DNA from: Undaria pinnatifida
Taxonomy: Eukaryota > Sar > Phaeophyceae > Laminariales > Alariaceae
DNA: 64,000 nt
Direction: 5' to 3'
NCBI GenBank assembly: GCA_012845835.1
Contig: JABAKD010000003.1
Location: forward strand, 681,984 to 745,983
Below are positions 6,381-40,223 of this stretch, piece after piece. The notes below the pieces were generated by a model. It saw only the letters and a program-made list of their open reading frames with translations. It was not told the DNA's origin and did not search any database. Every line of letters starts with the position of its first letter. The stretch's first letter is position 1. The position numbers and the translations under genes are program-made.

Positions 6381-6384
6381 AGAA

Positions 6385-8960: not shown

Positions 8961-8964
8961 TTCG

Positions 8965-9150: not shown

Positions 9151-9157
9151 AGTACAG

Positions 9158-9345: not shown

Positions 9346-9482
9346 TTGTAGTTCAAAAATAACTATGAGACGAGTAAATGTAGCGGGTACGATCTAGACG
9401 AAACGTAACGCTGTGTTTCTGTCAAGGTGTATTTTGTAACTTCCACGTCACAGTAGTAGTGGGAGTTCCGGCCGTATTTTGC

Positions 9483-9640
9483 AGGATGTCATGTCTCGGC
9501 TCGTACATGTGATGTACTACTTCGTCAACGAGATCGTGGCATATTACGTCAAGAGGAGGGTCTACTTTACCAATAGTCATCAGGAGCGGTTCGACAAAGT
9601 CAGCACAGAAACCGCTGACGCCCATAAACTTTACTCATGA
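9483..9640 (+). CDS. Possible upstream exon of the cyclin gene, copy A
   Basis: After TTTGCAG a frame opens: DVMSRLVHVMYYFVNEIVAY then YVKRRVYFTN, giving an in-frame ATG. YY.NEIVAYYVK.RVYFTN is also read in copy B (53,800-53,880), but there a short deletion removes the LVHVM part and shifts the ATG out of frame. A helix followed by the main exon would suit the start of a cyclin box. No donor site is convincing, so this is a guess. Confidence 0.25.
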
Positions 9641-9898
9641 CTTACGGGTAACAAAAGCGGCAGATAGATGCCGCGGGGATGCCGTAGACTAACCGGGTTG
9701 ATCGCTTCATGCAGTTTGTTTTTAAACTGCAATGCCTGTCCCAGCTTCGAGTAAACGTAGATTAATGAGCGGCATTTGATCCGCCCTCTTCTTCTTTGCC
9801 TCCTCTCCCTCTTCCCCTCTTTCCCTCTCTCTTTCTGCCTCTCTATCTGCCTAAACGCCCATCTCTCCATACATGTACCCGCGCGCCCGTCCCCAAAG

Positions 9899-11024
9899 GC
9901 ACCACTACTCAACAAACTCGTCTACCCGGGTGCGGCCAATGTAGTAGGCACGATACGCCTCTCCACCGAGGATATCGATTTCAGGTTAACCTGTGCCTAC
10001 GCCAAGCAGAAGGATGCCTACCCCTTCCTGCAGCGCGGATACGCGGAGATGTCAGCCGAAACCCGTGAAACACAATGGCTAGAACTGGATGAGATCGCCG
10101 ACGGCCTAGCCGCTGGGGCGGGGGGCTACAGACCTTACCAACCCTCGGTGGATGCTTCCACCGTTGCCATGGTCAACTTGGGGAGATGTTACGGTGCGAG
10201 AGCATTTTCGGCGGGCGGTTGTGGTGGCAGAGGTGGTGGTGGTGGTGGTGGTGGTGCTAGCGGTGGTGCTAGCGGTGGTGCTAGCGGTGATGGTGGTGAC
10301 GTTGGCAACGACGAAGAGCTGTTGCGCCCGTGTGACGAGGCTATACTCCCCGCGGTCTTGATGTACATGAGCATCAAGTTAGACGAAAACTTCCCGTCGG
10401 GATGCCTCCTGCCGCGGATTCTAGCCGCGTTCCACGTGCGGGGGGTGGAATTATGCCGCGACATCTCGAAAGAGATGGAGAAACTCGAGTTTCGCATCTG
10501 CGAAAGCCTTCATTTTGCTGTGCTCCCCGAGACCCCGATCTCCTTTTTACACCTTTTCATCGCCCGCGCAGTATCAGAGAAGGCTCTGATTGAGAACCAA
10601 ACCGCCAGCATCGGAGAGCTGGCGGCCAAGACGTCCTTGAGGTGGATGAGGGCCGGATTTCTCGCGGTCGCCAAGCCTTCGGAGATGGCCGGGGCGGCTT
10701 TCGAGCTTGCGGTATTCCGCGAGCGCGGCGCCGAGGCTGCCGCGAGGGTTTGCCGGGCGGCAGGGTGCCTGATAGGGACGTCGAACAACGCCATGCCGCT
10801 CTGCCGAGTCTTCAGGAATAAATCGGGGCTGTTGAGCCGCGCTCCGCGGGCTAAGAAGGTCTGCGCTCGTAAGGTGTACGGCGGCCGCGGCGACAGTGGT
10901 GGCGGGACAGAACGCGTCGGCGGAGGTGGTGGCGGCGGCGGCGGTGACGATACTAATGGAGCAAACGGCAGGGGCTGGTTGCGGCCGATTCCGGCGTTGG
11001 AGAATGTGGTGAGACATGACACGT

Positions 11025-11059
<35 letters not shown>

Positions 11060-11077
11060 GATGTTGATTTAGCTTAA
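9899..11077 (+). CDS. Cyclin (cyclin-box protein), copy A, main exon
   Basis: Cyclins bind and activate cyclin-dependent kinases. The cyclin box is visible. A helix-2-like STVAMVNLGRCYGARAF is followed by a long glycine-rich insertion, then helix 3 with the conserved Lys (LPAVLMYMSIKLDEN), then ISKEMEKLEFRICESLHFAV with the conserved Glu, then LPETPISFLHLFIARAV and an alanine-rich second half. The C-terminus holds another Gly run and a Val run from a GTT microsatellite (about 11,023-11,060). There is no in-frame ATG near the N-terminus. A strong pyrimidine tract (9,780-9,850) followed by the first AG (CAAAG|GCACC) suggests an exon start at 9,899 with earlier exons upstream. Against copy B the frame is kept although Gly and Val runs differ by whole codons (net four residues). 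It is flanked upstream by two inverted cyclin fragments. Confidence 0.8.
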
Positions 11078-11079
11078 AC

Positions 11080-11890
11080 CTTTTAACACCATGTCTGTCG
11101 GAAGACTAACACCCAGTAGATAGAGGTAGATACTACAAGGGCTCCGCATGGGTGCCGGCATCTCATGCTCCGGGTAGGGCAGGGCGGTACTTCGACTTGT
11201 TCGATTCAATATCCGATAGAGAGTATATACCTTTATAGTACGCAGCACATAGTGTGCGCGTATAGAAGGTAGAGTAATGCCAAGAGATGAATGTAGACTA
11301 ACAGTGGACTACTTACTTCTTGTCGCTTCTTGCGTGAATCCATTTCCGAGCTTCATCATAATAATTCGATCGGATAGATCCGAGCCCACGCAGACTGACC
11401 CTCTAGTCTGGCCACGAAGAGACGGTTCGAGTGCGTTACTTGATGTTTCGACTCAACCAAGCATCCAGGGCCCGCAAGGGGGTGGCCATGTATGCTGCAT
11501 GTTCTCTACGTAGCCACTGAGAGGCGCGCACTTAGCCAGCTTCTGCTACACCATGCATGATAGTATCTAGATCCGAGGCTCGCAGACCCACTGTCTGTGT
11601 ATAGTCTGATTGTGGAGAGACTTGCTGACGGTATTCTAGGCGTGAAAACACGGTGCCCCGCCTTCGTCATTCAATTCCTCGAATGCTATTTTAGTAATGC
11701 TGCTACTTGTTGCTATCTGGTAGATAGAGCACTAGTAGTACGCGATAGCACTGAACCAAGAATTTGGCAATTGAGAATTTCAGGCCCGAGTTTCAGACGA
11801 AAAGAAAAAAAAACATGTACTACCTGGTATGGCCTTTTTGTCTGATCGCTGGTCGCTCATTGGCCGGGGATCGTACATAAAGTAGCCGTC
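11080..11890. other. Cyclin 3' flank and spacer, copy A
   Basis: No long frame. The flank near 11,140-11,290 (GGGTAGGGCAGG...) recurs inverted at 28,240-28,390. Copy A has a short extra segment (about 22 bp near 11,154-11,177) that is absent in B and C. The equivalent in B is 55,352-56,150. Confidence 0.5.
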
Positions 11891-12830
11891 ATCTGGGGAC
11901 GGTAGGGTCCCATCATAATCAATCCACACATACATATACAACTCCGACAATCCGGGAACAAATGCGGATGGATATCACCAGGATTGATATCTCCCCGCAC
12001 AGTGTGGAAGTCCTCAACCCCACCGGCCGGCCGGTCTCTGATTGGCTGGGGGGCGTATATTATAGAGCCAGCTCTAATCGATTATCTGTATGCCCGGCGT
12101 AGGGTGGCTCGCGGGGATATTGTTCCCGGTACCCGGCGAGGGACCATCAGGCGGAGGAGAAGATAAGAAGATAGAAAATATGTATTAAAGTACTGGAGTC
12201 CCGGAGACCACTCTGAACATGCACACCCGAAGACAACTAACAGTGTACCAGGTACTGATTATGCACTTAATATGCACTGTGCCAAAGGGGGCTCAACTCG
12301 AACATATCGAAGATTGGGACCGCAAATCATATCAATAGTTTTACTCTACCATCTCCGTAGATTCTATGCAGTCATACACACCATACACCAGACTTGTGCA
12401 CAGGCATAAACCAACAAGCTCCACCCAGGGACAATAGGGTCCCATCCCCGGTCCAGAGGTCATTATATATATCTAAAATTTAGACAATAAACCGGGGAAT
12501 AAAACCGATTTCTCTCCGATCGTCACCGCCCCTAACGGTGTGAAAGCCCCAACTCCGTGGGCTATAATCGCTGATTGGTTCGAGTTCCACAGCGCCGCCC
12601 CACCCTAGGAGGATGATAGAGGCTCACCAACCAATTGGGGGGCAGTTCCGTCGCACACGGGGGTGATAGGTCCCCATTCCCGGTTCTGAAATAATGTGAA
12701 TCTCTGCAGCTCCAACAACGTGGGAACTATATAACGATTATCTCCCGGGTCGATACCTCTCCGCACGGCGTGTCAACCCCGACCCCATTGGCTTATTCGT
12801 GATTGGCTGGTAGGTTTTGACCCAATAAGC
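11890..12830. repeat. ~200-bp satellite, diverged units, copy A
   Basis: Units share, in order, TAGGGTCCCATC, CCGGTTCTGAA or CCGACAATCCGGGA, a GATATC/GATCGTCACC segment, CGCAC.GTGTGGAAG, CCCCAACCCC and a CTGATTGGCTGG-like box. At least four units can be traced. The same family appears at 56,150-57,060 and, inverted, at 26,780-27,670. Confidence 0.7.
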
Positions 12831-15068
12831 TCACAATTATTTCGACCGACTCGGGTTTTCTCGCATACTTCCGTATACGGCAAACATTTGCAATGCGAGC
12901 GCAATTCGACCAGCTATTTGCATGATAGGTCGCACAAAAAAACGATTTTAAGCCCATATCAGGTTGGCGTGCCGAGCAAGCACGCTCAAAATGAGAGTGA
13001 GAAACACTTCAACAGCAGCAACAGCCCCAAACGCAATATAAATGAACGAATTAGAGCGATTTGTGTCCAGGATTCAGGGGGCCCCGATTATAAACTGAAT
13101 TCCAAACACGAAAAATGGGGTGTTCGAAGCAAAACTACTTACGAGTAGTAACTAGAACTTACACTGGCACAACACGAGCATAATAACCGTGAAAAACAAC
13201 CTGAAATAAGGCCAAAAACGTGCGTATTTGACCCGCGTAATAATGGTTGAATATCATGGAATACTCTATTCACCTCTTTGTTGTTTACGCGACACCGAAA
13301 GAATATGCTGAAAATCGCGATTTCATTCGCTTATCCCAAAACCAGCTCGCTAATATATGTTCGCGGGTTTTCTTGCATACTACTCGGGTAGGACACAAAT
13401 TCGCCATGCGACACCGCAATGCTTACCAAACTGTATACCCAGAACGTCAAGGATAAAACCGTTCGGGGCATAAATCTTAAGAGCGTTCAAATCGCCATGG
13501 CTCGGCATACTAACAGCCATATATTGCCCACAACAGATAAGAGCAATGAGCGCCTGCTTCGGCTTGTCACAGGGGGACATTGAATCGGAATACCCCCACT
13601 GTGTACTTCTGCTGTAATTACTTGTTGGTGTAGCTTGTCTGAAAAGCTATTCTTGTATTGTATCAGTTTTTTTCCGTATCCCATCTATGATCCTTTTGCA
13701 CTACTCTTGACCTCCCTCCCAGTAGTAGTATAACTCAGATCAGGGGTCACATAGCGGATCCTCCTACCCCCTCCCCACTACGGTACATGCCCTCATTTCA
13801 ATCCGTCGTCGATTCGCGTCGAATTGTACCTACCCACGCTGCCAGGTGTTCTCAGCAGTTTGTTGATCCTATTTTTGCATTTCTGCACATCAAATCAAAT
13901 CTCACAACGGTGGGAATCAAACTCAAGGACCAACGCTAGTAGTACTCGTAGGTAGCCACTTGATAGACCACCGGGGCGACCGGCTCTATATAACTCACTA
14001 GAGATGATCAATCACAGCAATCAGCAGCAAGGAGCACGTCAAGTAGGAAGCAACACAAAACTATTTGTTAGTTGCGTACCAACACGACCGCTCTTTTTAC
14101 AGTTGACCGCGGCAAACGACCAAAACATCAACGGAGGCAGAGGCACCACAGCGACAACAAATCACGCCTTCCACACCGTCTATACTTCTCCATAGAGTAT
14201 TCTCGGAGAAAAGAACCACCAAACGATGCGATACCGGGACAAATGCATGCCACTGGTTTCTTCCGTGGATACCGTCTACTACTTGCCCTACGACCTTCGC
14301 GTGGCGCAGCTGAACAACAACAGGAACGATTTCCCCCCTTGTTTTTTATGTTGAAAAGTTATTCCCTGTTTTTTGGTACACCCTCCCCCTTGCTATAAGT
14401 CAGACAAAAAGCGTGTGTATAATATATCACATCAGTGTGTTTGCTCCCACTCGTATCCATATTACTTGCACGACTACAAACTATGTCGATATGCCCGAAC
14501 TACCACCCTCGAGGCCGGGGACGCAGCCACTCGTAATGCTGCTGTGTGGCTTTTTCTGGCGCAGTACTCGTAACCACTACTCCTCGTTTTGGTCATGCGT
14601 GCGCTTGCCATGTCTATCCATGTACGTACGTACCTACCGAAATTCAATAATGAAATGCGCTACTACTATGTATGATATCATACCTACCGCGGTACCATGG
14701 TGATTCTTTTTTCAGTAAATATTATTCGTTTTGGGACAAAAGATGACGCCAATTTGGAAATAATGTCTTGCCATGTTTTATTTTATCAATCTATCCATAC
14801 ATCAAGATCCGAAGAATAACTGGAGAGTACCGTTCAAAACACATTTTTTTGCGCGCTTCTCGTTTGTCTTGCTCAGCATCCATCCGCGTTCACGTCGATG
14901 TGCGGAACGTATAGGGCAGGGCGAGGGGCGTTGGAGCCGCCCCACGAAGACGACGCTCGAACGAATCGATTTGACCGGGAAAATCCAGTTCCAAGAATCC
15001 CATACTGAGGCCGAGAGGATAAAAAAATCCCGACCAAATCCAGGTCCCCTCAAAAAAAAAACCGTCAT
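12830..15068. other. Non-coding block, copy A
   Basis: Only short frames, none recognised or kept in copy B. It is shared with B (57,060-59,334) and, inverted, with C (23,105-26,780). A C-rich stretch with GGGGTCACATAGCGGATCCT at about 13,743 and runs of CAGCAGCAA are seen. Nothing indicates an RNA gene. Confidence 0.45.
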
Positions 15069-15083
15069 ATATATATGTATATA
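15068..15083. repeat. TATATATGTATATA breakpoint sequence, copy A
   Basis: At this TA-rich run copies A, B and C part company. B carries a 2.1-kb block between two such runs (59,334-59,351 and 61,446-61,461), and C's homology ends at TATACATATATATA (about 23,105). Confidence 0.7.
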
Positions 15084-15580
15084 GCCGGACACAACGGGAA
15101 TATGTGCTCTGCTATCCTAATCTTGACCTGTCACCCCCCCGGAATTTCTCCCTCCTGGCCAATCATCGTTCTCCTAGTCTTGGTTTTTTAAAAGCCACGC
15201 CTATTGGACGGCACTCAGTAGCGATACTGCGGAGACGGAAGCCAAGAAGAAGGGAAAATGCCCTGCTATCCTTGTATTGTTTTGGTCCCCTCCGTCTTCC
15301 TTCCTCTCTCATGCAAGTTGTCATATTTTAGTTACATGATGTCTATGGGACGACACTCTCAGTAGATACATATAGGCAGAAGCAACGGAGAGTAAACAAA
15401 TTATCTGTTGACTTTGGACCCGCCCCCTCCCCGTACTTGTTCATCTGCCACATGCTGTTGTTTTCGTACTTTGAGTCATGTTTGTAGGATGGCACCCTCA
15501 AGTAGAAAAATAAGGTAGACGGAAGCAATGAAAAAACAAAAACTGTGATATGTTAACCGAGTTCTCCCTCCATCCCCCAA
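15083..15580. other. Upstream region of glycine-rich gene, copy A
   Basis: Well conserved in copy B (61,461-61,966). It includes a pyrimidine-rich stretch with TTCCTTCCTCTCTCATGCA (15,297) and two near-identical segments around GATGTCTATGGGACGACACTCT and GGATGGCACCCTCAAGTAGA (15,340-15,520). Promoter elements are not recognisable. Confidence 0.35.
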
Positions 15581-17137
15581 ATGCTCTGCGCAAATGCCGT
15601 TCATCCGCCCCCGCCCCCCCTCCTTTCCCTCCCTTTTAAGCGCTGCTGGGACGTGGCCGACCTGGAGAAAGGTTTCTCGACCTTGGGAGGCGATATATGT
15701 GCGTTGGCCCAGCCAACTCCCAATGTTGCCACTGTTGCCTCTGTCGCGAGGTATCGCACTACCGCAGACGAAGTCGGAGGTGCTGGTGTTGGTGTTGATC
15801 GGGTTAGTGGTGGGATTGGTGGTTGTAGTGGTGGTGGGGTTGGTGATGGTGATGGTCGTAGCGGTGGTGGTGGTGGTTCCGGCCGCGGCAGCGCTGGTGG
15901 TGGGGTTGCTTGTGCTCGTGCCCGCGCCGAGGCGAAACCGGCACAAGCCAGTGCCTGCGAGATCCTTGCCCCCGTTCCACGACGCCCCCTCTCCCATCTC
16001 TGGAAGAGGGTCGTTGACCCGATGAACAGGTTCCCGTCCCCGGCCGGGAGCATGGCGGCAACGCTTCAGCCGCCGCCCACTGTTGCTGCCCGTGCCGCCG
16101 CTACCGCTTTTTTCCCTGTTGCGGGGTCTCGCGACACCGAAGCTGGAGGTGGTGTTGGTGGTGTTGGTGGGGTTGGTGGGGTTGGTGTTGGTGGTGGCGG
16201 TGGTGGTGGTGGTGGTGCCGGCTACGGCAGTGCTGGTGGCGTCGCTGCTTGCTCTCGCGCTCCCGCCGACACGGGACCGAGACATGCCCTTCCGCGCACC
16301 GAACTCATTGTTCCCGTCCCACGACGCCCCCTCACCCAGCACTTGCGCAACGAGATCAACAACCAGAGTAGGTACCCTTGCCTGGGTGGCCACGCGAGGG
16401 GCATCACCCAACCACCGCCGCTGCCCTCCGCTGACGCTGTTATTGCTGCTTTCGCTGATGAGGGATCCCGCAACGCCCGAATTCAAGCAGGAGATGGTGG
16501 TGGAAGTGGTAGATGTAGTGGTGGTGGTGGCATTGCTGTCCCTGGCGTTGGAGGTGGTGGTGGTGGTGGCGCCTGTAATAGCGGTGGTGACGGCGTTGGC
16601 TGTGGCGGCGGTGGCGGTGGCCGCGATGGTGTTAGTAGCGGTGGTGGCGGCGGTGGTAGCACGGGCGGGTTCGATCAAGCTCGTCTGCGTGCGCCGCCGG
16701 GATTTGAAGGCGTAGCCTTGGCTCCTTCCGCCATGGCGAGACCCGTACAAGGCGGAGACGTTCGCCGCGTTCAGCAGCCCCCTCTCCCTGCCGCGGCGGT
16801 AGTGCGCAACGCCTTAGAAGCAACAATTTCAGCAGTGCCTCGAGCCGGCCACAGCTACCCCACCCCGGGTTTCGGTGTCGTTTTCAGGCAGGCAGAAGCC
16901 CAACAGAGGCTCCGGATGGACCGTCAAAGGACGGAATTGCATCAGCAGAGGCTTGAGCTCGAACTTCAGCGGTATCAGCTGCAAAGGCAGAAGGTGCTGC
17001 TGCGGCGGCGCCGCCGTGAGTTTCAGCGTCAACAGGAGCACGAGGCGCAAGCGGTGCAGTCATTGGTGTTCTGGGGTTCCGGAGGACTGCTGATGCCCGT
17101 GGCTCGGACGCTTGGTTCGCCTGGCGCAGCCTCGTAG
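15581..17137 (+). CDS. Glycine-rich repeat protein with C-terminal coiled coil, copy A
   Basis: 518 residues starting MLCANAVH, the same start context as copy B. Three repeat units of about 110 residues follow, each with a proline cluster (AQPTPNVA, LQPPPTVAA, TQPPPLPSADAV), a Gly-rich run, GSAGG.A..ARA.A and, in the first two, PVPRRPL followed by a basic helix (SHLWKR or TQHLRN). A unique part (ARLRAPPGFEGVALAPSAMA) leads to a Gln/Arg/Leu-rich coiled coil (QRLRMDRQRTELHQQRLELE onward) and a hydrophobic tail. The function is unknown. The frame holds against copy B through many whole-codon length changes in the Gly runs, and substitutions favour the charged/coiled part least. An antisense 424-codon Thr-rich frame is a by-product of the GGT repeats. 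Confidence 0.7.
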   Translation: MLCANAVHPPPPPLLSLPFKRCWDVADLEKGFSTLGGDICALAQPTPNVATVASVARYRTTADEVGGAGVGVDRVSGGIGGCSGGGVGDGDGRSGGGGGSGRGSAGGGVACARARAEAKPAQASACEILAPVPRRPLSHLWKRVVDPMNRFPSPAGSMAATLQPPPTVAARAAATAFFPVAGSRDTEAGGGVGGVGGVGGVGVGGGGGGGGGAGYGSAGGVAACSRAPADTGPRHALPRTELIVPVPRRPLTQHLRNEINNQSRYPCLGGHARGITQPPPLPSADAVIAAFADEGSRNARIQAGDGGGSGRCSGGGGIAVPGVGGGGGGGACNSGGDGVGCGGGGGGRDGVSSGGGGGGSTGGFDQARLRAPPGFEGVALAPSAMARPVQGGDVRRVQQPPLPAAAVVRNALEATISAVPRAGHSYPTPGFGVVFRQAEAQQRLRMDRQRTELHQQRLELELQRYQLQRQKVLLRRRRREFQRQQEHEAQAVQSLVFWGSGGLLMPVARTLGSPGAAS

Positions 17138-17344
17138 CGTGCTGCTCGCGCAGCGATGGTCCCGCCCGGGTTTAGCCGCGGGCAGGGTAACGATGTTCGG
17201 GGAAAACGCGCGGAGATTGACGGTGGGCGTGTAAGCGTTGTTTTTCCCCGATCTGGTTCGGTGTGGTTCGGTTATGTTCAGCTACGTTCGATTCGGTTCG
17301 GAAATACTCGTTTAGGATCAGTTCGGTTTGTACCTTGCGTCGAT

Positions 17345-17440
17345 TTAGATCACGTTTTTCCGATTTAGAGGACCTTCTTCCGATTTAGATCACGTCCTTC
17401 CGATTTGGATCACATCATTCCGATGTAGATCACGTTATTT
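17345..17440. repeat. 20-bp tandem repeat, five units, copy A
   Basis: CGATTTAGATCACGTTTTTC and four variants in tandem just after the glycine-rich gene. Also at 63,667-63,765. Upstream (17,265-17,300) is a run of GGTTCGG-like words. It may be part of the gene's 3' region. Confidence 0.85.
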
Positions 17441-17659
17441 TCCGAGAAGACTTCTCCTCGTCAGGATTTCCTCCTGGCTGAGAAATGAAGCAACCTGTTA
17501 TGTTGAAACAGTTTAACTAGCAGTGGCGAAAACGTTTAGTTTCTTCCCCCTCGCCTGGGTGAGAATAGCGCTGTAAATGGGTGTTTCTCGTTCTTGGGTT
17601 TTTATTCGGTTTGTTGCTGTCCGTTTTGTTCTTCCAACCAACGGACCGGCCTAGAGACG

Positions 17660-20590
17660 AATCGGCAGACCGACCGACCGACCGGCCGACCCAGACTCGC
17701 GCGCACGGAGAGTGATATCCTATAACCATGAGATCGGTTCGCGATTGTCTGCATTTTATACTATGCCAACAATCGTTTGTTTTTGGTGTACCACCTCTCT
17801 TCCCCGCTCCGGTCGGCGCTTGCCTCCTGTACGGCCTGCGGTAGTTGTACCCATAGTTCGGACTCCGTGCGATTCGGTAGATTCCTGGTTCACGATCCGC
17901 TTCTTGCCATCCGGTGATCACTGATTTCGGAACGTGTCGTAGTGCCTTAAGTCGGACGCTATATTGGTCGGTCCCGATCGAACAAACAAGGCGAGACGCC
18001 GCGGCGGAGTTAAGTCGACGATCTTTCGGGCTGTGTGCGTTTATTTTTATTTTTGTCTGACGAGGACTCGAGCTCTTTGCCCGCCCGAGATTCGTTAGGG
18101 TTTCGTTGAAAAAAATATGTTGCATACATTATGTTCCAACGATTTTGTTGCTTTCCGTGCATGTGTGCGCGCGCGGTGATGCCCGACTTTGCGTGATTGT
18201 GTGCGTGGGTGGGTTTTTGATAGGGCAGGAGGGGGAAGATACGCGGTTGACGCTCTTCCTTCCTTCGGCGTGTTGTATGCATGATGTGTGCAATAAGAAC
18301 TGTCCTATAGTTGGATATTTTGCATTACATGTAGAAGTAAATGAAGTGATGCGGTGTGGTGCTGAGCTCCCCGTTTTCATGCGTGGGTTTGTGTGAGCTG
18401 TGTATAACCTGTCGTGGGATGGGTTTGCGTCAGCCACTGGCTGTATATATTGTACCAAGTACCGGGTACCAGGTGTGTGACAACACGGAGCCAAACACAT
18501 CCTGGTGGCGTTTGTATTCTCCGTGCTATTCTTGCCCTGGCATACAGACCGTTAACCTAACGACGGGTTGGCTTAATTTCCATATTCCCTTCCTCTTTTC
18601 ATTTTTTTCGCTTGTTTTCGTTCGTTTTTCCGATTTTGTTCGCAGTTTTGTTTGCAGTTTTCTTTTTCTCTGCTTCCATCCCGCCCCCTCCCTCCCGCCT
18701 ATTTTTGCATTTGCGGTCACAGCGTAGCCCGCCCCCACCCCTCCCGCCCCCCGAGTTCATGACCTCGGTGAATTGTAGTGATTGATCTCGAAAGTGTCGG
18801 CGTATTTGTTGTTGTTGTTGTTGCTTTTTCTATCAAAGAAACGCACTCCTACCAATATGACGTATGCGATGGTATCCAATCGAATGATTCGTCAATTCTT
18901 GTCGTCCGCAGACGATGAATTGCTGTGAATCTTGGCGTGGGGTTGGGGGTGGGGGACAAGCAGTGACTGCAGTGTTCGACCATTGATACCAAACTAGGCA
19001 CATGGGTGTACGGCCGCGTAATTATTTGTTGCTTGTCCCAACCCCACGCCTCTTGATCTGCCAGTAATTCTTTCGATACGTATGGGAAAAACGCTGCTGG
19101 CGGTGATTGTGGTGGTGGTGGTGGTGGTGGTGGTGGTGGTGGTGGCGGTGGTCCTGCCCAGAGGCACATCATGCCGGGGTTAAAAAAGTTGTGATAAAAC
19201 GTACCTACGGGGCCTGATGGTGGTGCGCGTGGTACTTTGATGTATTGGCGGGGTCAGAGGACTTTATATTGATTTTAGTGGTGGTATATTGGTTAACTTG
19301 AGGTATCACCTACTCTTTGGTGTTGTTTTCTTGGCGCGAGTATTGTTCCTTGGACTTGCGCGTGTAGCTCGTGCTGGCAGTCAATAAAAATGAACTGCTA
19401 ATGTATAATTCGATACACGTTTTTGCGTCTTCAAGCACAACAAGAACAATCATGGGAGCTTCAACTTGAGGGACAACGACGACATTTTATAACACTTCGG
19501 AGAAGGTATACACGCGTAACGCAACACTTCATCAAGTGCATATCGCATCGTAGGCACTACTCGTATGGCTACCGCTCATGCGCCCAGCAATCAATATTGC
19601 TTTCACCACGAATTTAGCTGTTTAATGCCAGAGCTAGACATTTACATACAGACCAACACGTAGAAGTGCGCTGCAAATCGTCATTGTCGCACTCCTCTGA
19701 TGCTAATACGTGCATGCTACAGAGGGGGTATGATACGTTCCACAAAAACTGCCGCTGCTCTCTGGTCCTAACATATTATCACCGCGCAACGCTTCGAGCG
19801 AAATCACGCATATGCGCAACGCACACGCCTTGTGCTTGTTACAACGTGTATATGCTTTGAAGTACGCAAACACGTTTCGTCGCAGGCAAACTGACTTTTG
19901 CGCCTCATTCGATTTTGTTTCTGTTTTTTTTTTCCCCCGCCGTACTCTTAAGACTGTTTTCGCCTCATCTGCTCGATGTACCTGTCATTTTGAGGCCACA
20001 AAAATAGGAATTAGTAGGTTCCACCAGTTCAAATATCATTTTTTGATTGTACAGCCGTTCAAAGTTCAAAACGATGTCGCAAAATCAATGTTTAAAGTGC
20101 TTCTTCCGGCGTAGTCTAAAGTCAACATCGCCACAAAATGCCTCCGGCGGCCCTGTACGGCGCGCGGCCTCCGGCGACCCTCCGAGGCACAAAGCTGACC
20201 CCCCCCGGAGCCGCTGTGGGGTGCCCAACACTGGGCGGCGGCCTAAACTGTGCCCTGCTGTGTGCCGTCACGATAAGGTATTTCGTTCGCCCGCTTCTGT
20301 ACAGCCCATCCATGAGATTGATTGTTCCTCGCGTTGCGGACACAACCTTTCTCCGAAATCGTCGTTTTGTCGGCTAGGGTATCATAGAGTCCCTCATGAC
20401 AAAACTTTCAGAAATTCGAGTACGCCCCCCTTTTCTGCCGTTAATACGAGAGGCCCTAAATACAACACCGTCTTTGACATATCTCGCGGCAACATCACTG
20501 CCTGTTTGCTCGAGGCTGGCCGTTCATACGCATGTTTTCTTTTGCCAAAACGCCACCACAACACGCGGCGGAGCTATCGCGCGACCGCCA
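17660..20590. other. Gene-poor stretch with simple repeats
   Basis: Has no partner in the window. It includes a (GACC)n run near 17,670, pyrimidine-rich DNA at 18,590-18,760, a (GGT)n microsatellite at 19,108-19,150 and many short frames. A minus-strand 202-codon frame (17,517-18,125) is disrupted in the part visible in copy B. A small frame at 19,423-19,617 is Gln-rich and unrecognised. I see no supported gene. Confidence 0.5.
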
Positions 20591-28399: not shown

Positions 28400-29938
28400 A
28401 TCCTTCTGGAGACTTGGCGGAAATTCCAAGCTCATCAAGGGTGCCGTGCGCCACGCGCAATTGGGTGCGACGCATCATTACTGCGGAAAGAAAGCGGCAC
28501 TCTCAGCTCGCGTTTTATGAACCAGAACGGATCATATTAGGGGTGTGATCGTAGTGTGTGAAGGGGTCGTGGTGCCGGATGGTGAGAGGGAAAGGACACA
28601 GGGGGATCAGCTTCGCTTGGAGACAGCACTGGTTCTTCTTTGTTGATTTCTTACTACTGGCGTTGAGCTGTGAGAAGCTCGAGGAGACAGGAAAGGAGAA
28701 GGAGTGAGAGCATGGGGGTGGGGTGAGGCTCACAGCGTTCGCATCACCCCAACATTGCGGCTGTGCTCTCTTCTGGACCTTTACCTACGGAACATACAAG
28801 GAACGTTCTCCTAGGTTTTCTATATTCCCATGAGCGCTTAACGCGCTTGCTTCTACCTAACTTGTCCAGAGGAGGAACGTTCCATTACCGGGAACGCTCT
28901 TGTGGTATAAGCTAGCTAGATTCCACGGGTTATCCGCTCCACCCAGAATATTTCGTTTAAGAGAATCTTCTTGTGGCCAATAGACCATAAGTCTGCGGGC
29001 TATCTTCCCGAATCTATTGCCAGCTATAATGACACTCTATTACTTTAGCCCACCCTGAATAGTCGTATATGCAGACCTCAAGACGGTCGAAAGGTGACGA
29101 CAGCGTTCGTTCTAAAAGACCGGGAAAGGGGGTCGAAGATGCGGCTAGTCGAAATAAAGACATGAGGCTATAGATTCCCCTACACCTCGTAATGAGGCCT
29201 AAACGCGAAGGATAGGGCCATTCACTAATAAAGCAGGCCGCTGAAACAGATGCCACTACAAGATAGAGGAAGACAGAAAACCCAGAATGGGGCAACCTAA
29301 GTAGAGCAGCCAAATCTGGAAACGAAAAAAGAAACCTGAAGACTAAGCGAAGGTAGCTAAGAAAGACAGAAGTCGAAGCGAAGACAAAGGGAAAACAGAA
29401 ACACATTACCGGAGCGATCTGTGTGTGACTCAAAGAGGAGCGAACGGGGAGTCATTTGCCGTACAGGGTCGGTCGTAAAGGAACATCACCCAAATCCGAA
29501 ACTATATATGTCCGGGAGGCATTACGCGTAGCTGCGTGGCCAAGGCCCAAAGAAAATGAAAAATAGCACGTAAGGCAAAAAGAACGCGGCTAGGTTGCCG
29601 TAAGGCTTGCTAAAACTAAGGGGCTGCTAGGACCACTTGGGAAGTTCACGGGAACCTGAGCACAGTTCCAGGGGATCAACCGTGGCAGGAATATGATTAC
29701 CGAGAATTCGGCAGCCTTGCGGGGCGGCAAAAGCTACCGGGACCCAAACACGAAGAAAACACGAAAAAAAAAGAAGAGAAAGCATGGCCGGTATTTCGGT
29801 GGTCTTGCAAGTCTGCAAGGCTGCCGGGGCCCTACTTGGCAAAGTGCGCAGAAACCCGATCAAACCTAGAGCTCGACGATGCCGTCAGGGCAAAGCGACG
29901 CCGGCGGTGGTCAGGATACAACACGAAGGTCGAGCGCC
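28400..29938. other. Unrecognised region between copy C and the retroelement
   Basis: Contains palindromic GGAACGTTCC-type words (28,800-28,900) and minus-strand frames without recognisable domains (29,014-29,433, hydrophobic, Phe/Leu/Ser-rich). Part could be the 3' untranslated or terminal region of the minus-strand retroelement, but I found no terminal repeat to prove it. Confidence 0.3.
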
Positions 29939-30905: not shown

Positions 30906-31346
30906 CTAACCACGGGTGGGAGTTGGAACGGTAGGGGCACCGCGGGAAGCATCAGAGGTCCGTAGCACCCCACGGGATAGGCTCCCATGCCCATGGCGTT
31001 GAAGGTACCACAATCCAGAGACGGCGTTCTGGACGGTAGTGTAGCGAGCTGGCTGGAGGTCGATCTTGATCGGGCCGGGGTCGTCCAGGAACCTGATGAT
31101 GTAGAAACTACCCGGGGAAGGGTCCGGGGGTTTTCGCGAAAAGACGTCCGGTGGCGCGCGGTGAGCGATCTTGCCCAGCCACCAGAGGCCGTCACGTGCC
31201 TTGTACCAGACGTGTGCCCCGGAGGGGAGGGTGAAGTTGCTGAAATTGCGAAGCCACAGGTCGCGGGGGACCAGGGTGTAGCCGGGGGCGAGGAAGAGGT
31301 GGCCTTGAGATCGCGAGAGCTCGCGGTGTGCGGCGCCGATGCGCAT
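30906..31346 (-). mobile_element. Retroelement C-terminal Tudor/SH3-like module
   Basis: LPSGAHVWYKARDGLWWLGK, then SFYIIRFLDDPGPIKIDLQP followed by ARYTT, resembles a small beta-barrel (Tudor or SH3-like) that follows the integrase in some algal elements. The assignment is by general shape only. Confidence 0.45.
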
Positions 31347-31416
31347 CTGGCGGTAGAGGCGGTTGGTCTGACGGTGTTGTGTCGGCTTTCCGGACCAGTT
31401 GAGTAAGATATGGCGC

Positions 31417-32830
31417 CTAGAGTGTTGAAGGTCGAGCTCGCATTACCACGAGGGGGAGTCCGGTCCAGTGGGTCTCGTATAGGACGGCGATGACCCCGCC
31501 GCGGCCGCGTACGAGTTGGTGGCCGGTGATCTGCTCAACCTCGAGGCGCTCCGGTGGTGGTGTGACGTCATTGAGGGTGAGGTGGTAGGGGGGGGACTTG
31601 GCAGTTGAAGCTGTGAGGACGTATGTTGTGAGGTCCGCGGGTAGGTGCTTGGGTATGTCGTTGGTGTCGTCGGGGTTGTGGCAGGGCTTGCATCGTTTGA
31701 CGGAGACGCGTGGTTTGGAGTCCCGTCCCGGAAGGTCTGAAGGTAGATCGAGGAAGAGCAGCTTGTCTTGTAGGGGGCGGTTGTCGGGGGTGTCGGAGGC
31801 AGCAGTCGGGCCTACCGCGAGGACCTCGCAAGGTCCACTCCAGTTCAACGAGAGCTTCGTCTTCAGAACGGTTGCGTCGGTGCCCTTCTTGACACCCTGA
31901 CGGATAGTGAAGGCGGAGTTGTAGACCCAGGCCCAGCTGCCAACGGAGAAAGGGGAGGAGGCGAGGAGGGCGGCCATGACGGGCGCGTTGCGGCGTTGTA
32001 GACGCGAGACGGTGAGTCGGTGGAGCTCGCGGACGAGGGAGTAGGCGCGTTGTTGCCGGTCGGTGGCAAGGTTGATGTAGACTAGGTGGTCGCGATCCAG
32101 GCTCTGGTCACCGCCGATGTTTTCGGGTTCGAAAACCGAGAGCGAGAGGCGGGGTAGGCGGCCGATGTGGATCTCGTTGGGCGCCAGTCCGGTGGCGGCG
32201 TTGACAGAGTTGTTGTAGGCCGCCGATACGTGCGGCAGTAGCACGTCCCAGTCCGTTTTCTTCTCGTTGCCGTCCATGGATAGCATCTGGACCAGTACAT
32301 GGTTAACCCGCTCGACGCCGCCATTGGTGCAGGGGCAATAGGTGCTGGTATTGACCTTGCGGATGCCAACGCGGTCGTAGACGATGGTCGCCAGCTTGGA
32401 GGTGAATTGTTGTCCATTGTCGGAGAGGGGCCTCACCGGGCACCCCCAGAGAGGGATGTACTCGTTGAGCAGGATGCCGGCAGTTCCGGCGGCCGTGGAG
32501 TTCTCTGCAGAGACAGCGAACATGTCGGCCCGGCGGCTGAAACGGTCGGTAAATAAAAGGATTTGCACGTTCCCGCGCGGTGTGAGAGGTAGGGGCCCGA
32601 AGTAGTCGACGCTGATGGTGATGCCAGGGCCGTTGGGTAATAGGAGGGAGAGGGTCGGCCAGCGAATGGTGTGTCGGGGGGTCTTGCGCGCCTAGCTGTG
32701 AAGGGCAGCGGCGGATCCACCAGCGGGCGGAGACGTCCATGCCGATCCACCAGTGAAACCGTGCCAGCATGCGAACCGTCCGGGTAACTCCAATGTGTAG
32801 GGAGGTGTGGGCGTGGCATGTGTTCAGCAC
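31417..32830 (-). mobile_element. Retroelement integrase with chromodomain
   Basis: The zinc-binding N-part (HIGVTRTVRMLARFHWW, about 32,820-32,700) is followed by the catalytic core LLFTDRFSRRADMF, PLSDNGQQFTSKL and GGVERVNHVLVQML, giving the D, D and E residues. Then comes a GPF/Y-like WSGPCEVLAVGP (about 31,830) and a chromodomain-like LEVEQITGHQLVRGRGG and YETHWTGLPLVV (about 31,570-31,450). Chromodomains of such elements direct integration toward marked chromatin. Confidence 0.85.
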
Positions 32831-33879
32831 CCAGGGGCGCATCAGCATTGGAACGTAGACGCGGGGGGAATAGGGTGCGGGTGACGGGAGGCTGTTCCCG
32901 GGTTGGGATGTGGGCGGTCGTTGGACCAGGAGGGTTGTTTCGTCGTCAGTCCGGTGGAGTCTGCTTTTGGCGGCAAGAGCGAGGACGTCGGCGAGTAGTG
33001 GGCGCTGGGCCGAGGGGATGAAATCCAAGAGGTCAGCCGGCGGCGGAGAAGGGGAGTCGAACGATAGGAAGCAGATGGCGGCGTAGCACACGGACTCTGC
33101 GTGTTGTTCGCGCGCCCAGTCTCTGTGGGTGTAGCCCTCAACGCGGGCGAGGAGGTGGGGGGCATTGTTGAGGTCGACAACAGGATCCGGGAGCGGAAGC
33201 GTCGGTGTTGATGGGGATGTCGGAGAAGACGTCGAAGGAGGGGCCGGCCTTGGTGGGGTAGGTGCGGGTGACGCGGGCGGCGTGGGGGCGGCAGCTGGAG
33301 GCGTTGTCGTCGAAGGAAGCCTTGGTTGGGCCCCGGCCGGGGGCGTGGGCGGTCGCCGGGTGGATGTAGGTGTTCTGGATACGGTTGGTTTCGGACGGCG
33401 TCCGAACACATAGTCTGCGGTAGGTCGGGGGGTTCCCGCGGCGGCAGCGGCGGCGCGATGGCGGGTCCGAGAAGAGATCAGACCCGAAGGCGGTGGTTCC
33501 GTGGCGCCAATGGTGGACAGCGAGGAGACGACGGGTGGCCTGGAAGCCGAGCCAGGAGGAGCGCCGGTGTTCACGGTGGCATTATCGGGGCTGACGAGCG
33601 GCCTGGCTGTGGAGTCGCGGGTTGAAATAGGCCCGACGAAGTTGTTGGGGATGCCGTGGTGCTCCATGCGTGATCCCAGTAGGCGGAAGTCGCCATAGTC
33701 GTCGGCGGTGAAGGGAAGAGGCTGGATTGTTGGCATGGGTCTTGAAGGGGGGGACACGAGCCCACCAAAGCCGATACCCGGTGTAGGCGTCTCGTTCGGT
33801 GCGAAGCCGCAGGGGCGGATGAGGTAGATGCCAACAGTGTCGGGGCCAGTGAGGCGGTTGCGTCCGGTGCGGTCCGCGT

Positions 33880-34354
33880 CGGTGGCTGATTGTGGTAGGC
33901 GTGAAAGGAAGTCGGCGTTGCCGTTGGCCGTACCTTTGCGATACTTCAGTGTGTAGTTGTAAGCCGAAAGGAACTCGAGCCAGCGCCAGACGAGAGCATT
34001 GTGCTCACCAAGCTTGACAATGTTCTCGAGTGCCTTGTGGTCCGAATGAATTTGGAAACGGGTGGACCACAGATGCCCGCGTAGTCGCTTGATCGCCCAG
34101 ACAATGCTGCCGGCCTCGAGGTCGAGGGGTGTCCATGAACGTTCGGAGTCGAGAGGGGGGCGGCTGATGTAGATGATGGGGCGGACGGAGCCGTCAGGTT
34201 GTTCCTGCTCGAGAGTCGCTCCAAAGCCATCGATGCTAGCGTCGCAGTAGAGACGGAAAGGGCGGGAGTTGTCGGCGACGGCGTCCCAGTCGGGGTAGAC
34301 GAGGATCGGTGGCTCGGTAATTACACAGAGGATGGCGCGGATGGTGGCTTCCAT
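33880..34354 (-). mobile_element. Retroelement RNase H
   Basis: FRLYCDASIDGFGATLEQ contains the first catalytic Asp, WTPLDLEAGSIVWAIKRLRG the Glu, IHSDHKALENI the next Asp, and GTANGNADFLSRLP the final Asp. This is the typical Ty3/gypsy RNase H. It is followed by a long Pro/Ser/Thr linker to the integrase. Confidence 0.9.
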
Positions 34355-35276
34355 GGCGGGGTGAAGTCGAAAGTGGCGCCCTGCTTGAGTAGAGTGTTGA
34401 TGGGGCGAAGACGTCTGGAAAAGTTTGGTAGGAACTTGCCGTAGTAGTTAATGTCTCCGAGGAGTGATCGCACCTGTTTCTTGTCGGTGGGCATGGGAAC
34501 TTTGGTGAGGGCGGCAACCTTGTCGGAGTTGGGGCTGTAGCCGCCAGCGGAGATGGTGTGCCCCAGGAAGTCGCCGATAGTGGCGTCAATTTTGGCCTTG
34601 GAGGGAGAAAAGTTGAGGCGGTGCTTACGGAGGCGACTAGAAAGGCTCGGATGTTGGCGACGTGGTCGGTGGGGTCAGGGTCGAAGACGATGATGTCGTC
34701 GAGGTACGCAGCGACGCGTTCCAAGCCTTTGATGACCTCGTTATTGACCTCAACGAACCAACCGGGGGAGGCGCTGCTGCCTTGCGGCATCACAAGCCAC
34801 TCGAAGAGCCGGTCTGGCGTGCGAAACGCCGTCAAAGGGATGGTATCCTTGTCGATGGTGATTTGGTGGAACGAAGAGACCAAGCCGAAGAGGGAGAAAA
34901 TGCGCCCTTTTCCTAGAGAATCGAGAACTTCGTCCACCCGTGGGATGGGAAGCTTTGCGAGGGAACTGATGGCGTTCAGCTTCTTATAGTTGATGGTGAT
35001 GCGGACACCGCCCTCCTTCTTTGGGATGGCGACCATGGGGCTGGAGTAAGGTGAGGTCGAATGCTGGATCAAGCCGGCGGCCAGGTACTGGTCGAGGACG
35101 GCGTCGGCCTTTTTGGCAAGGATGGGGTTGATCCTGTACGGGCGGGAGGCAACTGGTTCGCTGTCCGGAGGTACGGTGATCTTGAACGGCATCAATGAGC
35201 ACGAGCCGAAGTCGGTCTTGGAGGTGGAGAAGACGTCCGGAAACTCGCAGAGGGCATCTCCCAGGCTGTCGATCAC
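34236..35276 (-). mobile_element. Retroelement reverse transcriptase
   Basis: Ty3/gypsy RT motifs are seen in order: YRINPILAKKADAVLDQYLA, then SPYSSPMVAIPKKEGGVRIT, then FSLFGLVSSFHQITI, then PQGSSASPGWF, then AAYLDDIIVFDP with the catalytic YLDD. The thumb and connection follow in a Ser/Thr/Pro-coloured stretch with weaker similarity. Confidence 0.9.
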
Positions 35277-35929: not shown

Positions 35930-36424
35930 CGAGCGTCGCTCGAAACGCATCCAGCTATCTCGCCCCAAGAGGATGGGATGCTGCACAATTCCTGCAGGAA
36001 CGACGCAAGCCCATACTGCCAGGGCGGCGGTGGGGGTTTGGTGGTGCTTAAACTGGGTGCTTAAGCGGATGGAAACGGAGGTGGAGAGGGGAGTCGAGGT
36101 CCCGAAACCCCCCCATGAACGAGGTGAATTATGTCGTCCGCACTCATCCGTTGCTGACCGGGACGCCTTCAGTTGTTCCACGGCGGCGGCGGTGATGAAC
36201 GAGTGAGGGAAGCCTGTATCGAGCAGCGCCACAAGTTTGCAGCGTTTGGCGGCGGTAGGGCCGCTGTGGACTAGTACCTCGGTCGTGAACGACGCGTCGT
36301 CGACAGTTAGGATGCCGCTTGTAAGGCACGGTCCATGTTCTGGTATCGTCGGCGCGGTGGTAGCGGGGTATAGGTTGGTTGCGCCGTCGACGGCGGAGAT
36401 CTGAACGAAGTGGCTGCCGGGCAA
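35930..36424 (-). mobile_element. Retroelement aspartic protease
   Basis: KLVALLDTGFPHSFI is the active-site DTG loop with the following hydrophobic strand, and HPILLGRDSWMRF further on is the second conserved ILG.D motif. Role: processing of the polyprotein. A Pro/His-rich spacer leads to the reverse transcriptase. Confidence 0.85.
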
Positions 36425-36599
36425 GGCGTCCGGGGTGGAAGGTGGCAGAAGGAGTCCAAGCGGGGTACCCGGCGTTTGTTAAGGGGAGGAGGGGCTTGTC
36501 TCGTGGATGCCATCGGCGGTGGGGAAGACCCGGCTGGAGTCGTTGAGGGTGGGTGTTGGTTCAGCGGAGCAGGGGGGGAGGGCGCTTGTGGCGTGGAGG

Positions 36600-37090
36600 C
36601 TCGAGCGAAGGCGTTCGCGGACGTCCATAAGTACCCGGCCTAGCAGGTTCCGGCCGCGCCAGCGCGCCCTTTTGCAGGCGAACGGGTGGTCGGCCCTGTA
36701 GCCGATGCCCCAGACGAGGTCGTACGGGCTGGCCTCAGCGATGTGCTTCTCGCCAGTTACCTCGAGCGCTCGTTGTAGGTCCGGGTTCTGGCTTAACTTG
36801 CAGAAGTTGGTGTTGAGGACGACGTCGTAACGGTGTTGCTCCCAATACTTCTGGTCGAAGCCGGACACGGTGCGTCCAAGAGATTTTTGGACGGCGGGGT
36901 CAGGGGTGGTTCGGATGCGAAGCTCTGTCGCGGTGTCACCGAAGAGCGCAGCCTTCTGCGCCATCATCATCTGTTCGGCGCAGTTGTATGTGACGCCCTC
37001 GTACTCGATGTCGCACAGGTATCACTGTGAGAAGACGGACGAGGAGTTCCGGAAGAAACTGAAAGAATCCGGGGGGTCCGCAGTGTAATG
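36600..37090 (-). mobile_element. NADAR (YbiA/DUF1768-like) domain inside the retroelement
   Basis: Between the Gag linker and the protease the minus strand carries the hallmark motifs of NADAR domains in order. YEGVTYNCAEQMMMAQKAAL is followed by FGDTATELRIRTTPDP, then KSLGRTVSGFDQKYWEQHRY, then CKLSQNPDLQRAL, then TGEKHIAEASPYDLVWGIGY, then WRGRNLLGRVLMDVRERLR. This covers essentially the whole family length (about 150 residues). NADAR proteins are N-glycosidases acting on ADP-ribose or riboflavin-pathway intermediates, and some remove ADP-ribose from guanine in DNA. The role in this element is unknown. Assignment is by motif recognition. Confidence 0.85.
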
Positions 37091-38131
37091 TGCTGGCGAG
37101 GGCGAGTCGTCGGAAGGGTGTGGCGGGGGTGGTAGTTGGCGATTGTTGGTGATGTCGCCGTGTGGCGTTGTGGGGGGTGGAGTCAGGTCCGATCGGGCGG
37201 TGCTGACTTGAACGCCAGAGTTCGCGGGGGAATTGCTCAGCAAAGCCGAGGTACCGGGAGGGTCCACGCGGTGGCACGTACGCTGGGCGGGGATACCCTG
37301 AGGGGGCCTGTCTTCAGGCGTTTGGAGAGCAGGGCTGTACGCGCTAGGGCATGCAGATCCTGTGGCCCGAGTCCACGCAATGCGTGAAGCCAGCGAGGAT
37401 GACGGGGAGGGTGCTCAAAGCACGTCCTGGTCGACTGTGATCGCGAGTCTTCCGTCTGTAGAACGGGGCTGTCCCTCGAGCTCAGGGACAGTGGTGCTGT
37501 CAACACCGTGGCAGCCAGTGGGAATCCATCGTTTGCGGGCCCAACGTTGCCACTAAAAGGGCGCACTTCCTGTGACGAGCGGGTGAGCAGTGGCCAATCT
37601 GGGGTCGAGGCGGGCTCAGGGGGCGATGGCCCGGTAGGCGAAACAGATGTTCCGTGTGAACCGGATTCGCTGGTAGTCGTAATCGTCGAGACTTCGCCAA
37701 GGTTGGCAATGTCTGGAGTCTGAGCGATAGTCGGCAGGTAGCGTTGCACATCGCGGGAAGGCGTCGAGTGAAGAATGCCTGTAGGGCTCGACGTTTTGGC
37801 CTCCTCCCGCCCACACCTCAAGGAAATCACTGGAACGAGAGAATCAGTGCTTGAACAAGTGGTTGGGCATTGGGCTGGGGTAGAGGGGGGGCGTAGGGGG
37901 GCAGGGGGCAGGGAGTCGTGATGCACGTGGTGTACTCGGGCGTCTTGAGACCCGGTGTTCGCAGCAAGTGCTGTTGGCGGAGATGCTGCAGTTGCTCCAC
38001 CACCGGCTCTTCAGTTGGTGCGAAAGGTGCCCGGTTGTCTTTGGTTATAGGGTTGGTGGCGTTGTTGTTGCCGATCCGCATGTTCGACGGAGCGGCGGCT
38101 GCGGGGGCATAGGTCGCCGGGTCGTGTACCG

Positions 38132-40223
38132 TCATGGCTGTCGACTGCGTCGCGGCTGCGGCGCGCCGTTGTTGAAGTTGCTGCTCTTGCGACTGTCGGT
38201 TGCCGTTGCCGTGGGAGCGGCCGTTGTCGTGGGAGCGGCCGTTGTTGTGGCGTCTGTTGTTGGAGCGTCCGTTGTTGCCCCGGCGTTGGTTGAGTAGTCG
38301 CGGTTGTGGCGGTTGTTTTTGTTGGCGCCCCGGTTGTTGCTGTGGTAAGTGCCCCCACGGTTGTCGTTACGGTGGGCGTAGCGGTTGGAGTTTCGGTCGA
38401 CGTTGTGCTCGTACTGGCCCCGGCGGTAAGAACGCATCCGTTGTTGCCATTGACGGTAGGCGTGGCCACCATCGTTTAGCTGGCCAAGCGCAGGGTTGAG
38501 AATGCCGGATATGTTGAGGAAGTCCTGAGGGCAGGTCTTCATGCTGTAATCCGTACCGTTACAGTTAAGGCAGTGTCCGCCGGGAGCGCGTAGAGCTTGA
38601 GCGCGGGCCGAGCTCGTGAGGAGGGGAGTGAGCAGCGGAGGGTCCTGCGTACTCAACGTTGTCGTGGCCATGTACACATCTATGTAGTGTCGGAGAAGCC
38701 AGTCGGACTCGTCCTCGCAGAATGGGTCGCGGTCGGCCTCGGCTACGTTCATGATCAACGCGTTGGACGCGGAAGCCATCGCGCGAGTGCCGGGGCCAAG
38801 CGTGTTGGTGTGTTGCGCAGGGGGTGGTGGCGAAGAGGAGTACGTGATATGCCCGTCGGAAGAGGTCATATGGAATCATTGGCCGTTGATAGCCGGCGTC
38901 TTGTTCGTCGCCAGTACCTCGAAAACCGACCACATATCTGCAACCGTGGCAAACGGCTGCAGAACCGTCATGAGGCGGCCAGGGTAGAGAGTTGGCATCA
39001 GTGACGGGTACTGACTGCTGGTGACCCCGCGTACAATCTCGACGACCATAGCGTCACTGGGCTTAGAACTGTTTTCTGTGCCCTGTGCGATCGAGACGCG
39101 CTCCTTGAACGCTCGCAGGAACATAGAGAAGTCTGTTGAGCTCGGTACGCCGAAGGAGTGCAGCTGTTGGAAGGCGCGTCCCTGGTCGCCGTGGTCGAAG
39201 TGGTTGGTTAGGAGCTGCAGCAGCTTCTTGAAAGCCGACGGTCCGGTTCCGTCGGTGCCGAATTCCTGTACAACTTGGGCGAAGAAATCGTCGATGAGGC
39301 GGGTTAGAGGAGAAGCCATGACCTGCGGATACCCGAGAGCCTTTCGGAAGCATTTATGGAGAGTTCTGTGCCATCCCTTAACCCACGGGAGTGTGTCGAA
39401 TGATTGTTTTCCGGACTCGTCGCAGATCGTGAGGATCTCCCTCATCGCCAGTTTGACGCTGGCTAGGAACATGCCCAGGTAGACGGCGGCGTCGCTGTTG
39501 GCCGGGAAGGGTAGGCGTATGAGTGGTGTCAACTTCCGCATGTCCACCACGTCGTACTGGCGCGTAACGGCATGATGTTCGTCGTGCGTCATAGGTCCCG
39601 ATCGGGCTGGCGTTGTCCTGGTGGACGGGGTGGGGACCGTTGCCGGCGTGGGCGCGTTCGCGGTGGGCTGGGGCGGCGTCGCCGCCGTGGGTGCGACCGT
39701 CGTGGGGGGGGGGTTGGGGCGTGCAGTGGCGTCGGGACGGTACTCTCTTTGGTCCCACTCGTAGTCGCGGCCGGCGTTGTTGTGGAAGTGACGAAGGGCG
39801 AGTACCAGGGTGTTGGTGGCTCTGATGAGCTCGTCGGATGCGCTAGTGGTGGCGGCACGGGCCTGGACGAACGCGACCGATGGGTCGCTATCGGGGGCGA
39901 ATAAACCCCACAGGCGGTGTGCCGCCGATGAGACATCAGAGAAAGCTGCTCCGCATGTTCTCTGCACGCAGCGGAGTGTGGTGTCGCAGAAGCCCCAATC
40001 AATAGCCTCGCGCGGTAAAACCGTCGGTCGTGAGGATGCCAAGGGGGTGGGGGGGGGCAAGGGCTGGGCGGGCGGTGGCACCTGGTAGGTTGTGGTAACC
40101 GACTGGGCCGGCGGCGGCAGCTGGAAAGTAGTGGCTCCAGGCGTCACGGCGGGCGCATGGGTTGGCGCTATCCGCAGCGGCTGTGCCCGCCCAGCTATAC
40201 TGACACTCCATTACAAGTGGCAC
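38132..40223 (-). mobile_element. Retroelement Gag region
   Basis: The Pro/Thr-rich N-part is followed by a helical capsid-like segment (about 39,560-38,900: KLTPLIRLPFPANSDAAVYL, later TRLIDDFFAQVVQEFG) as in Ty3/gypsy Gag. Nearer the end is a Cys-containing cluster (HCLNCNGTDYSMKTC, about 38,580-38,530) resembling a nucleocapsid zinc knuckle. A low-complexity Thr/Asn/Arg tail follows. Role: structural protein of the particle. Confidence 0.65.

Follow-up and report, generated by a model that had tools for sequence, protein, structure and literature searches.

A NADAR domain in the Pol frame of a decayed Ty3/gypsy element

A 64,000-nucleotide stretch of Undaria pinnatifida contig JABAKD010000003.1 (hereafter, the window) carries on its minus strand a long terminal repeat (LTR) retroelement assigned here to family A of a Metaviridae (Ty3/gypsy) lineage and now decayed, with a NADAR domain encoded between Gag and protease. 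The domain and the open reading frame (ORF) that holds most of it are located as follows:

36605..37072, minus strand: NADAR (PF08719) domain; Pfam match at 36605-37009, upstream part from comparison with other copies, structure match to 8bau
36479..37021, minus strand: open stretch from the ORF list, comprising most of NADAR and a linker with a GIHE motif found in families A, B and C (see below)

A profile search with PF08719 matched the ORF with E=3.3e-46 (158 bits, cut-off 35.1), residues 5-139 aligning with positions 30-163 of the 163-position profile, i.e. with 36605-37009 of the window. Based on comparison with other copies, the domain starts about 13-16 residues further upstream in the same frame, at ~37072. 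It is broken by a TGA at 37022-37024, in the position held by the Trp of SQWY in most other copies of family A. The catalytic Glu and Lys are those of the motif AEQMMMAQK. Modelled with AlphaFold2, the open part has a mean predicted local distance difference test score (pLDDT) of 90.9. In Foldseek searches the model matched the Phytophthora NADAR-ADP-ribose structure 8bau (E=7e-9, template modelling (TM) score 0.70) and YbiA (2b3w; E=1.7e-6, TM 0.63), the next match having only E=4; by these two matches, the modelled domain has the YbiA fold. The combination of NADAR with a Ty3/gypsy element is real: the preliminary description had placed the domain on the strand of the retroelement genes in the order Gag-NADAR-protease, and the present analysis bears this out, adding that the copy is a pseudogene and that NADAR is part of the Pol frame.

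The remains of the element extend from ~40207 down to the end of the 3′ LTR at 28557 and include:

38014..40207, minus strand: Gag remnant, family-A Gag residues 201-938, in three frames with one internal stop (tblastn)
38531..38572, minus strand: zinc-knuckle remnant CLNCNGTDYSMKTC (translation); degenerate, the His of CX2CX4HX4C being replaced by Tyr
38011..38013, minus strand: UGA closing Gag; Pol continues in the same frame in 10 copies examined
36212..36226, minus strand: protease active-site motif LLDTG (translation)
34638..35027, minus strand: reverse transcriptase (RT), RVT_1 (Pfam E=3.9e-17)
33959..34273, minus strand: RNase H, RT_RNaseH (Pfam E=5e-26)
32702..32854, minus strand: integrase zinc-binding domain, H2C2 (Pfam E=8.1e-9)
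32338..32631, minus strand: integrase core, rve (Pfam E=3.1e-6, 27.8 bits, under the cut-off of 32.6)
30909..31469, minus strand: C-terminal part of Pol beyond the integrase, a possible reader domain (tblastn)
28557..29043, minus strand: 3′ LTR, 90.5% identical to a family-A LTR (blastn)

Family-A protein pieces follow one another from Gag residue 201 (40207) to the end of Pol (30909), with frame shifts and stops (tblastn). The order of the element is Gag-NADAR-protease-RT-RNase H-integrase, NADAR being part of the Pol reading frame, and the last four domains stand in the order of Metaviridae Pol, protease and integrase core being recognized by motifs or matches under the cut-off; protease profile matches in the family copies are also weak and under the cut-off. 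The knuckle position occupied by Tyr in the window copy is His in copies L033 and L037. No Gag start, leader or 5′ LTR was found for the window copy, and its DNA match to fuller copies stops at 40190. At the Pol end of family copies the Chromo profile scored 12.9 and 13.7 bits against a cut-off of 25.1; by eye, this end (30909-31469 in the window, and in family copies) appears Tudor-like, without Pfam support.

A second copy (L002, C37:674764-678300), 42 kb away, carries this TGA in NADAR as well and matches the window copy at 96.7% identity over 3.5 kb. Because the frames are broken and the NADAR stop is common to this duplicated copy, the window copy is a fossil, i.e. a pseudogene. Pieces of window positions 1-17661 pair with 42195-64000 at 89-95% identity and offsets of 42.2-46.4 kb, a segmental duplication that includes L002.

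Fuller copies and the place of the domain

A NADAR search of the 511 Mb genome yielded at least 151 matches, a lower bound, 150 of 1393 candidates having been scored. Three groups of NADAR elements could be discerned, namely A (to which the window copy belongs), B (with a NADAR ~47% identical) and C (L052, L054, L055 and L070, mostly degraded). Five copies each of A and B were studied closely, in pieces. In all ten, Gag ends in a single in-frame UGA, beyond which NADAR-Pol continues in the same frame. The open frame ahead of the UGA spans 498-1019 codons in eight of them and is short in L037 (190) and L031 (53), and the CX2CX4HX4C knuckle was seen in all four plus-strand copies inspected. Pol opens with a low-complexity stretch and NADAR (E=1.8e-49, 168.5 bits for PF08719 in one family-B copy), after which come protease, RT, RNase H and integrase; counted from the UGA, the NADAR motif lies at residue ~341 in A and ~432 in B.

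Both ends are present in a family-A copy on contig C19 (L231), which is 15,778 bp long, has 491-bp LTRs without a mismatch and is flanked by TAAT on both sides; among the five full-type A copies it is the one with both TG...CA LTRs and a target-site duplication. Such LTRs with a short target-site duplication are typical of Metaviridae, and they recur in three shortened copies (L234-L236, see below). In the pieces examined of the other four A copies a complete 5′ LTR was not found; L037 retains a 92-bp fragment, an inverted 150-bp fragment lies upstream of L033, and L031 and L039 show no trace. In family B, one copy has a pair of 271-bp repeats at 100% identity, and the downstream repeat alone was seen in the other four. 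Two further observations concern the 5′ region of family A. The tRNA primer-binding site of retroelements usually opens with TGG; the bases after the 5′ LTR of the C19 copy are ATCTGACGTC..., with no such start. In addition, the region upstream of Gag is inverted between L033 (1-1693) and L035 (1-1669).

Linkage of NADAR to RT was checked for 69 of 151 listed RT matches, comprising 36 A-class copies (at least 83% identity) and the first 33 B-class copies. A listed NADAR lies upstream of RT on the same strand in 28/36 A copies, at a median distance of 1132 bp, and likewise in 28/33 B copies, at a median of 1177 bp. Of the RT copies for which no NADAR was listed, eight were inspected (seven of the 13 in the linkage set and one more). 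Three family-A copies, L234, L235 and L236 (contigs C22, C61 and C26), have an LTR joined to Pol at or just past the end of NADAR, Gag and NADAR being gone. In L234 and L236 a short leader piece stands between LTR and Pol, and in L235 the LTR stops at base 417 of 491 and is fused directly to Pol. As each is bounded by a 4-bp target-site duplication (CCTG, ATCG and TATC), they were inserted already shortened, presumably using Gag supplied from elsewhere. L241 contains a divergent NADAR piece, and inspection of L237-L240 revealed neither a NADAR nor an explanation for its absence. To the question, raised in the preliminary description, of whether the domain always sits between Gag and protease, the answer is that it occupies one place in most of the copies checked. 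Members lacking the domain, named there among the grounds for rejecting the association, do exist, so that this ground applies in part: three are deletion derivatives devoid of leader (short pieces aside) and Gag as well, and L237-L240 are unexplained.

Relatives and history of the domain

The same NADAR-Gypsy combination has already been published for a brown alga, in NADAR-bearing Gypsy elements of Ectocarpus such as Gypsy-12_Ec32 (Genome Biol 2025, PMC12477816), the one clearly relevant paper among those listed by literature searches. This supersedes the remark in the preliminary description that the domain is unfamiliar as a standard part of Ty3/gypsy elements. The Ectocarpus domains are termed YbiA-family and have mostly bacterial matches outside Ectocarpus, and a C-terminal chromodomain is assigned to Gypsy-12_Ec32 (PMC12477816). 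The present lineage differs in that it resides in another genome and that family-A NADAR falls outside the grouping of B with Ectocarpus; Gypsy-12_Ec32 was compared by description only. The consulted sections of PMC12477816 mention neither the UGA nor the spacing in individual copies nor the derivatives without NADAR, and we claim no novelty for the UGA and the derivatives. A retrotransposon protein likewise carries NADAR in Crassostrea gigas, where the element is a non-LTR one (Tx1, a long interspersed nuclear element) and the domain, reported to be divergent, is in ORF1 rather than Pol (PMC12477816). In positive-strand RNA viruses, too, NADAR and a polymerase belong to one polyprotein, although no reverse transcription is involved there (PMC9503650).

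Using RT as a query, at least 322 proteins were found in other genomes (8000 best candidates scored), of which 120 were listed. The NADAR profile matches 26 of these 120, with weak scores in two cases (P0136, 14.7 bits; P0203, 16.1 bits). Listed proteins with at least 450 residues ahead of RT are NADAR-positive in 11 of 14 cases (P0136 included), the profile having no match in P0130, P0154 and P0234. The named NADAR+RT proteins among the matches listed come from Ectocarpus sp. CCAP 1310/34, and these, which match both RVT_1 and PF08719, rank among the closest named relatives by RT. Two other NADAR+RT proteins, P0134 and P0172, lie on contigs of 0.9-1.5 Mb and belong to clusters of 126 and 89 members, which suggests that this lineage has many copies in another genome. 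In viral contigs, the window domain alone as a query returned five stretches, none of them a relative, and a bacterial-led alignment (A1) returned 217 NADAR relatives, the best 80 of which were kept.

The NADAR tree was built from 68 hand-chosen rows: 10 of 59 domains of our own set, 36 of 120 proteins from a separate listing (including four element-like rows from ENA), 18 of the element proteins found with RT and four bacterial loci. A branch with support 92/83 sets the element domains, along with the non-element rows P0019, P0032 and P0104, apart from the rest. B and Ectocarpus are grouped (98/92), with family A outside. A single element clade, the outcome expected from the single capture that the preliminary description proposed to examine by a domain tree, has a P value of 0.372 in the approximately unbiased test (p-AU), the same as in a smaller tree of 66 rows; one capture is therefore compatible with the data, yet undemonstrated. 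The best-scoring non-element matches of that separate listing group with sequences of Saprospiraceae, Microbulbifer, Alteromonadaceae and Desulfuromonadaceae, and the tree points to no donor.

In the RT tree, A and B stand together (86/91; 96 by the Shimodaira-Hasegawa-like approximate likelihood ratio test in another tree), and they group with the Ectocarpus NADAR+RT proteins in trees that have neither an outgroup nor published family sequences. The stem of A measures 0.87 for NADAR versus 0.14 for RT, which hints at a replacement of the domain or a burst of change in it. A and B as a single NADAR clade are rejected when bacterial rows are included (p-AU 5.6e-8) and unrejected with the 21 element rows only (p-AU 0.114). 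Given the latter value, the RT support for A+B and the fact that the groups were named post hoc, we dropped topology as proof of NADAR exchange. It is possible, if on balance doubtful, that NADAR is an exchangeable module, as may be expected of a counter-defence enzyme, such that the domain of A was replaced by a deeply divergent one while RT remained nearest to that of B, and that it works in trans. The latter part is suggested by the Gag-less and NADAR-less family-A derivatives, which inserted with target-site duplications.

Possible function of the Pol-borne NADAR

Our tentative explanation, to which we give somewhat less than an even chance, is that NADAR is a Pol-delivered hydrolase taking ADP-ribose off the element's own nucleic acid. 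Low-frequency readthrough of the UGA would yield Gag-Pol, whereby NADAR would enter the particle together with RT, and the element protease may release it. The domain would then hydrolyse ADP-ribose, most likely from guanine, on element RNA or cDNA, keeping modified bases from blocking reverse transcription or from marking the element for restriction. In favour of this are the NADAR fold, the conserved catalytic pair, the fixed distance to RT, the UGA found at one place in all ten copies, low dN/dS in the most diverged copies and a higher identity between families in NADAR than in the Pol stretch ahead of it. The counter-ADP-ribosylation role raised in the preliminary description is likewise a hypothesis. 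Guanine-ADP-ribose hydrolysis by the C7 NADAR of E. coli requires K95, an E88Q variant lacks activity, and rescue of cells depended on both residues (PMC11543638). The four NADAR subtypes tested, from E. coli and a phage, were all active on guanine-ADP-ribose in DNA (PMC11125620). Splitting of gag and pol by one UGA is likewise known from Tca2 of Candida albicans, for which a 3′ pseudoknot was proposed (PMC2194720).

Both the Glu and the Lys of AEQ...K are kept in 27/31 family-A, 19/20 family-B (one row being unreadable) and 3/4 family-C copies; in alignment A2, Glu is present in 54/54 ungapped rows and Lys in 54/56. The last-strand residue, which in studied NADARs is Glu, Asp or His (PMC11125620), is Asp in 27/31 family-A copies and Lys (2), Ala (1) or Ile (1) in the four of family C; among relatives this column is variable too, with Asp in 28/58 rows. 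The last-strand Glu of the YbiA family is thus replaced in most copies of A and B and in all four of C, and by this residue we assign family A to neither NADAR subfamily. Judged by sequence, family A looks catalytically complete, B less surely so.

Selection was assessed by a counting method for nonsynonymous to synonymous rates (dN/dS) in 18 family-A copies, each compared with the single reference L033. The seven copies with the greatest divergence (L001, L002, L024, L026, L027, L029 and L051) have ratios of 0.24-0.44; the ratio is 0.37 in L020 and 0.3-0.47, on one to three synonymous changes, in L005, L010, L014 and L018. Synonymous sites are saturated between A and B. Identity between families is 40-57% in NADAR windows and 22-29% in the Pol stretch ahead of NADAR.

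Several results weigh against a Pol-delivered hydrolase. In family B the last-strand residue is Ala in 16/20 and Thr in 2/20 copies, so that activity in B may differ or be lost; because the acid is missing from 18/20 copies, our confidence in the explanation was slightly lowered. The dN/dS values come from small counts and from pairs that are non-independent (a common reference, L001 and L002 in one duplication), the ratio is 0.62-0.68 in L021, L023 and L025 and 0.8 in L015, and it reaches ~1.4 in L022 and L028, where synonymous changes number 2.5 and 3.5. Divergence is faster in NADAR than in RT. Since L234-L236 inserted without it, the domain is dispensable in cis. Folding of the sequence after the UGA gave no RNA structure signal (z 0.32 and -1.00), pseudoknots such as that proposed for Tca2 lying outside the model, and readthrough is unproven. 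Finally, the DNA ADP-ribosyltransferase profile DarT (PF14487) had no matches in the genome in a six-frame, intron-blind search whose control was positive in 1/14 genomes.

Alternatively, NADAR could act on small ADP-ribose or NAD-derived molecules, on by-products of RNA processing or on another N-glycoside (cf. riboflavin metabolism), lowering a host signal or cleaning RNA intermediates. Processing of RNA intermediates is the role proposed in PMC12477816, phage NADARs have been argued to act mainly on small ADP-ribose derivatives (PMC9503650), and the variable last-strand residue would fit such a role. Nevertheless, we consider it unlikely: the tested subtypes act on guanine-ADP-ribosylated DNA (PMC11125620), macromolecular targets are favoured for RNA-virus NADARs (PMC9503650), and an enzyme tethered to Pol would adjoin nucleic acid.

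Less probable still is that the domain is enzymatically disused and acts in Pol either as a folded spacer or by binding nucleic acid or ADP-ribose. The replacement of the last-strand acid in family B and the faster evolution of NADAR compared to RT would be expected in this case, but conservation of Glu and Lys in family A, many copies of which are pseudogenes, and dN below dS would not. The chance insertion of a host or bacterial NADAR gene beside one dead element, as the broken frames of the window alone could be read, is ruled out for practical purposes by the at least 151 genome matches, the fixed distance to RT and the same fusion in Ectocarpus proteins.

The copy-by-copy evidence shows, in a genome beyond the published one, an ADP-ribose-processing domain retained at a fixed site of the Pol frame by a lineage that replicates through reverse transcription. 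If NADAR is active, as the hydrolase explanation supposes, these algae would be predicted to ADP-ribosylate invading or reverse-transcribed nucleic acid.
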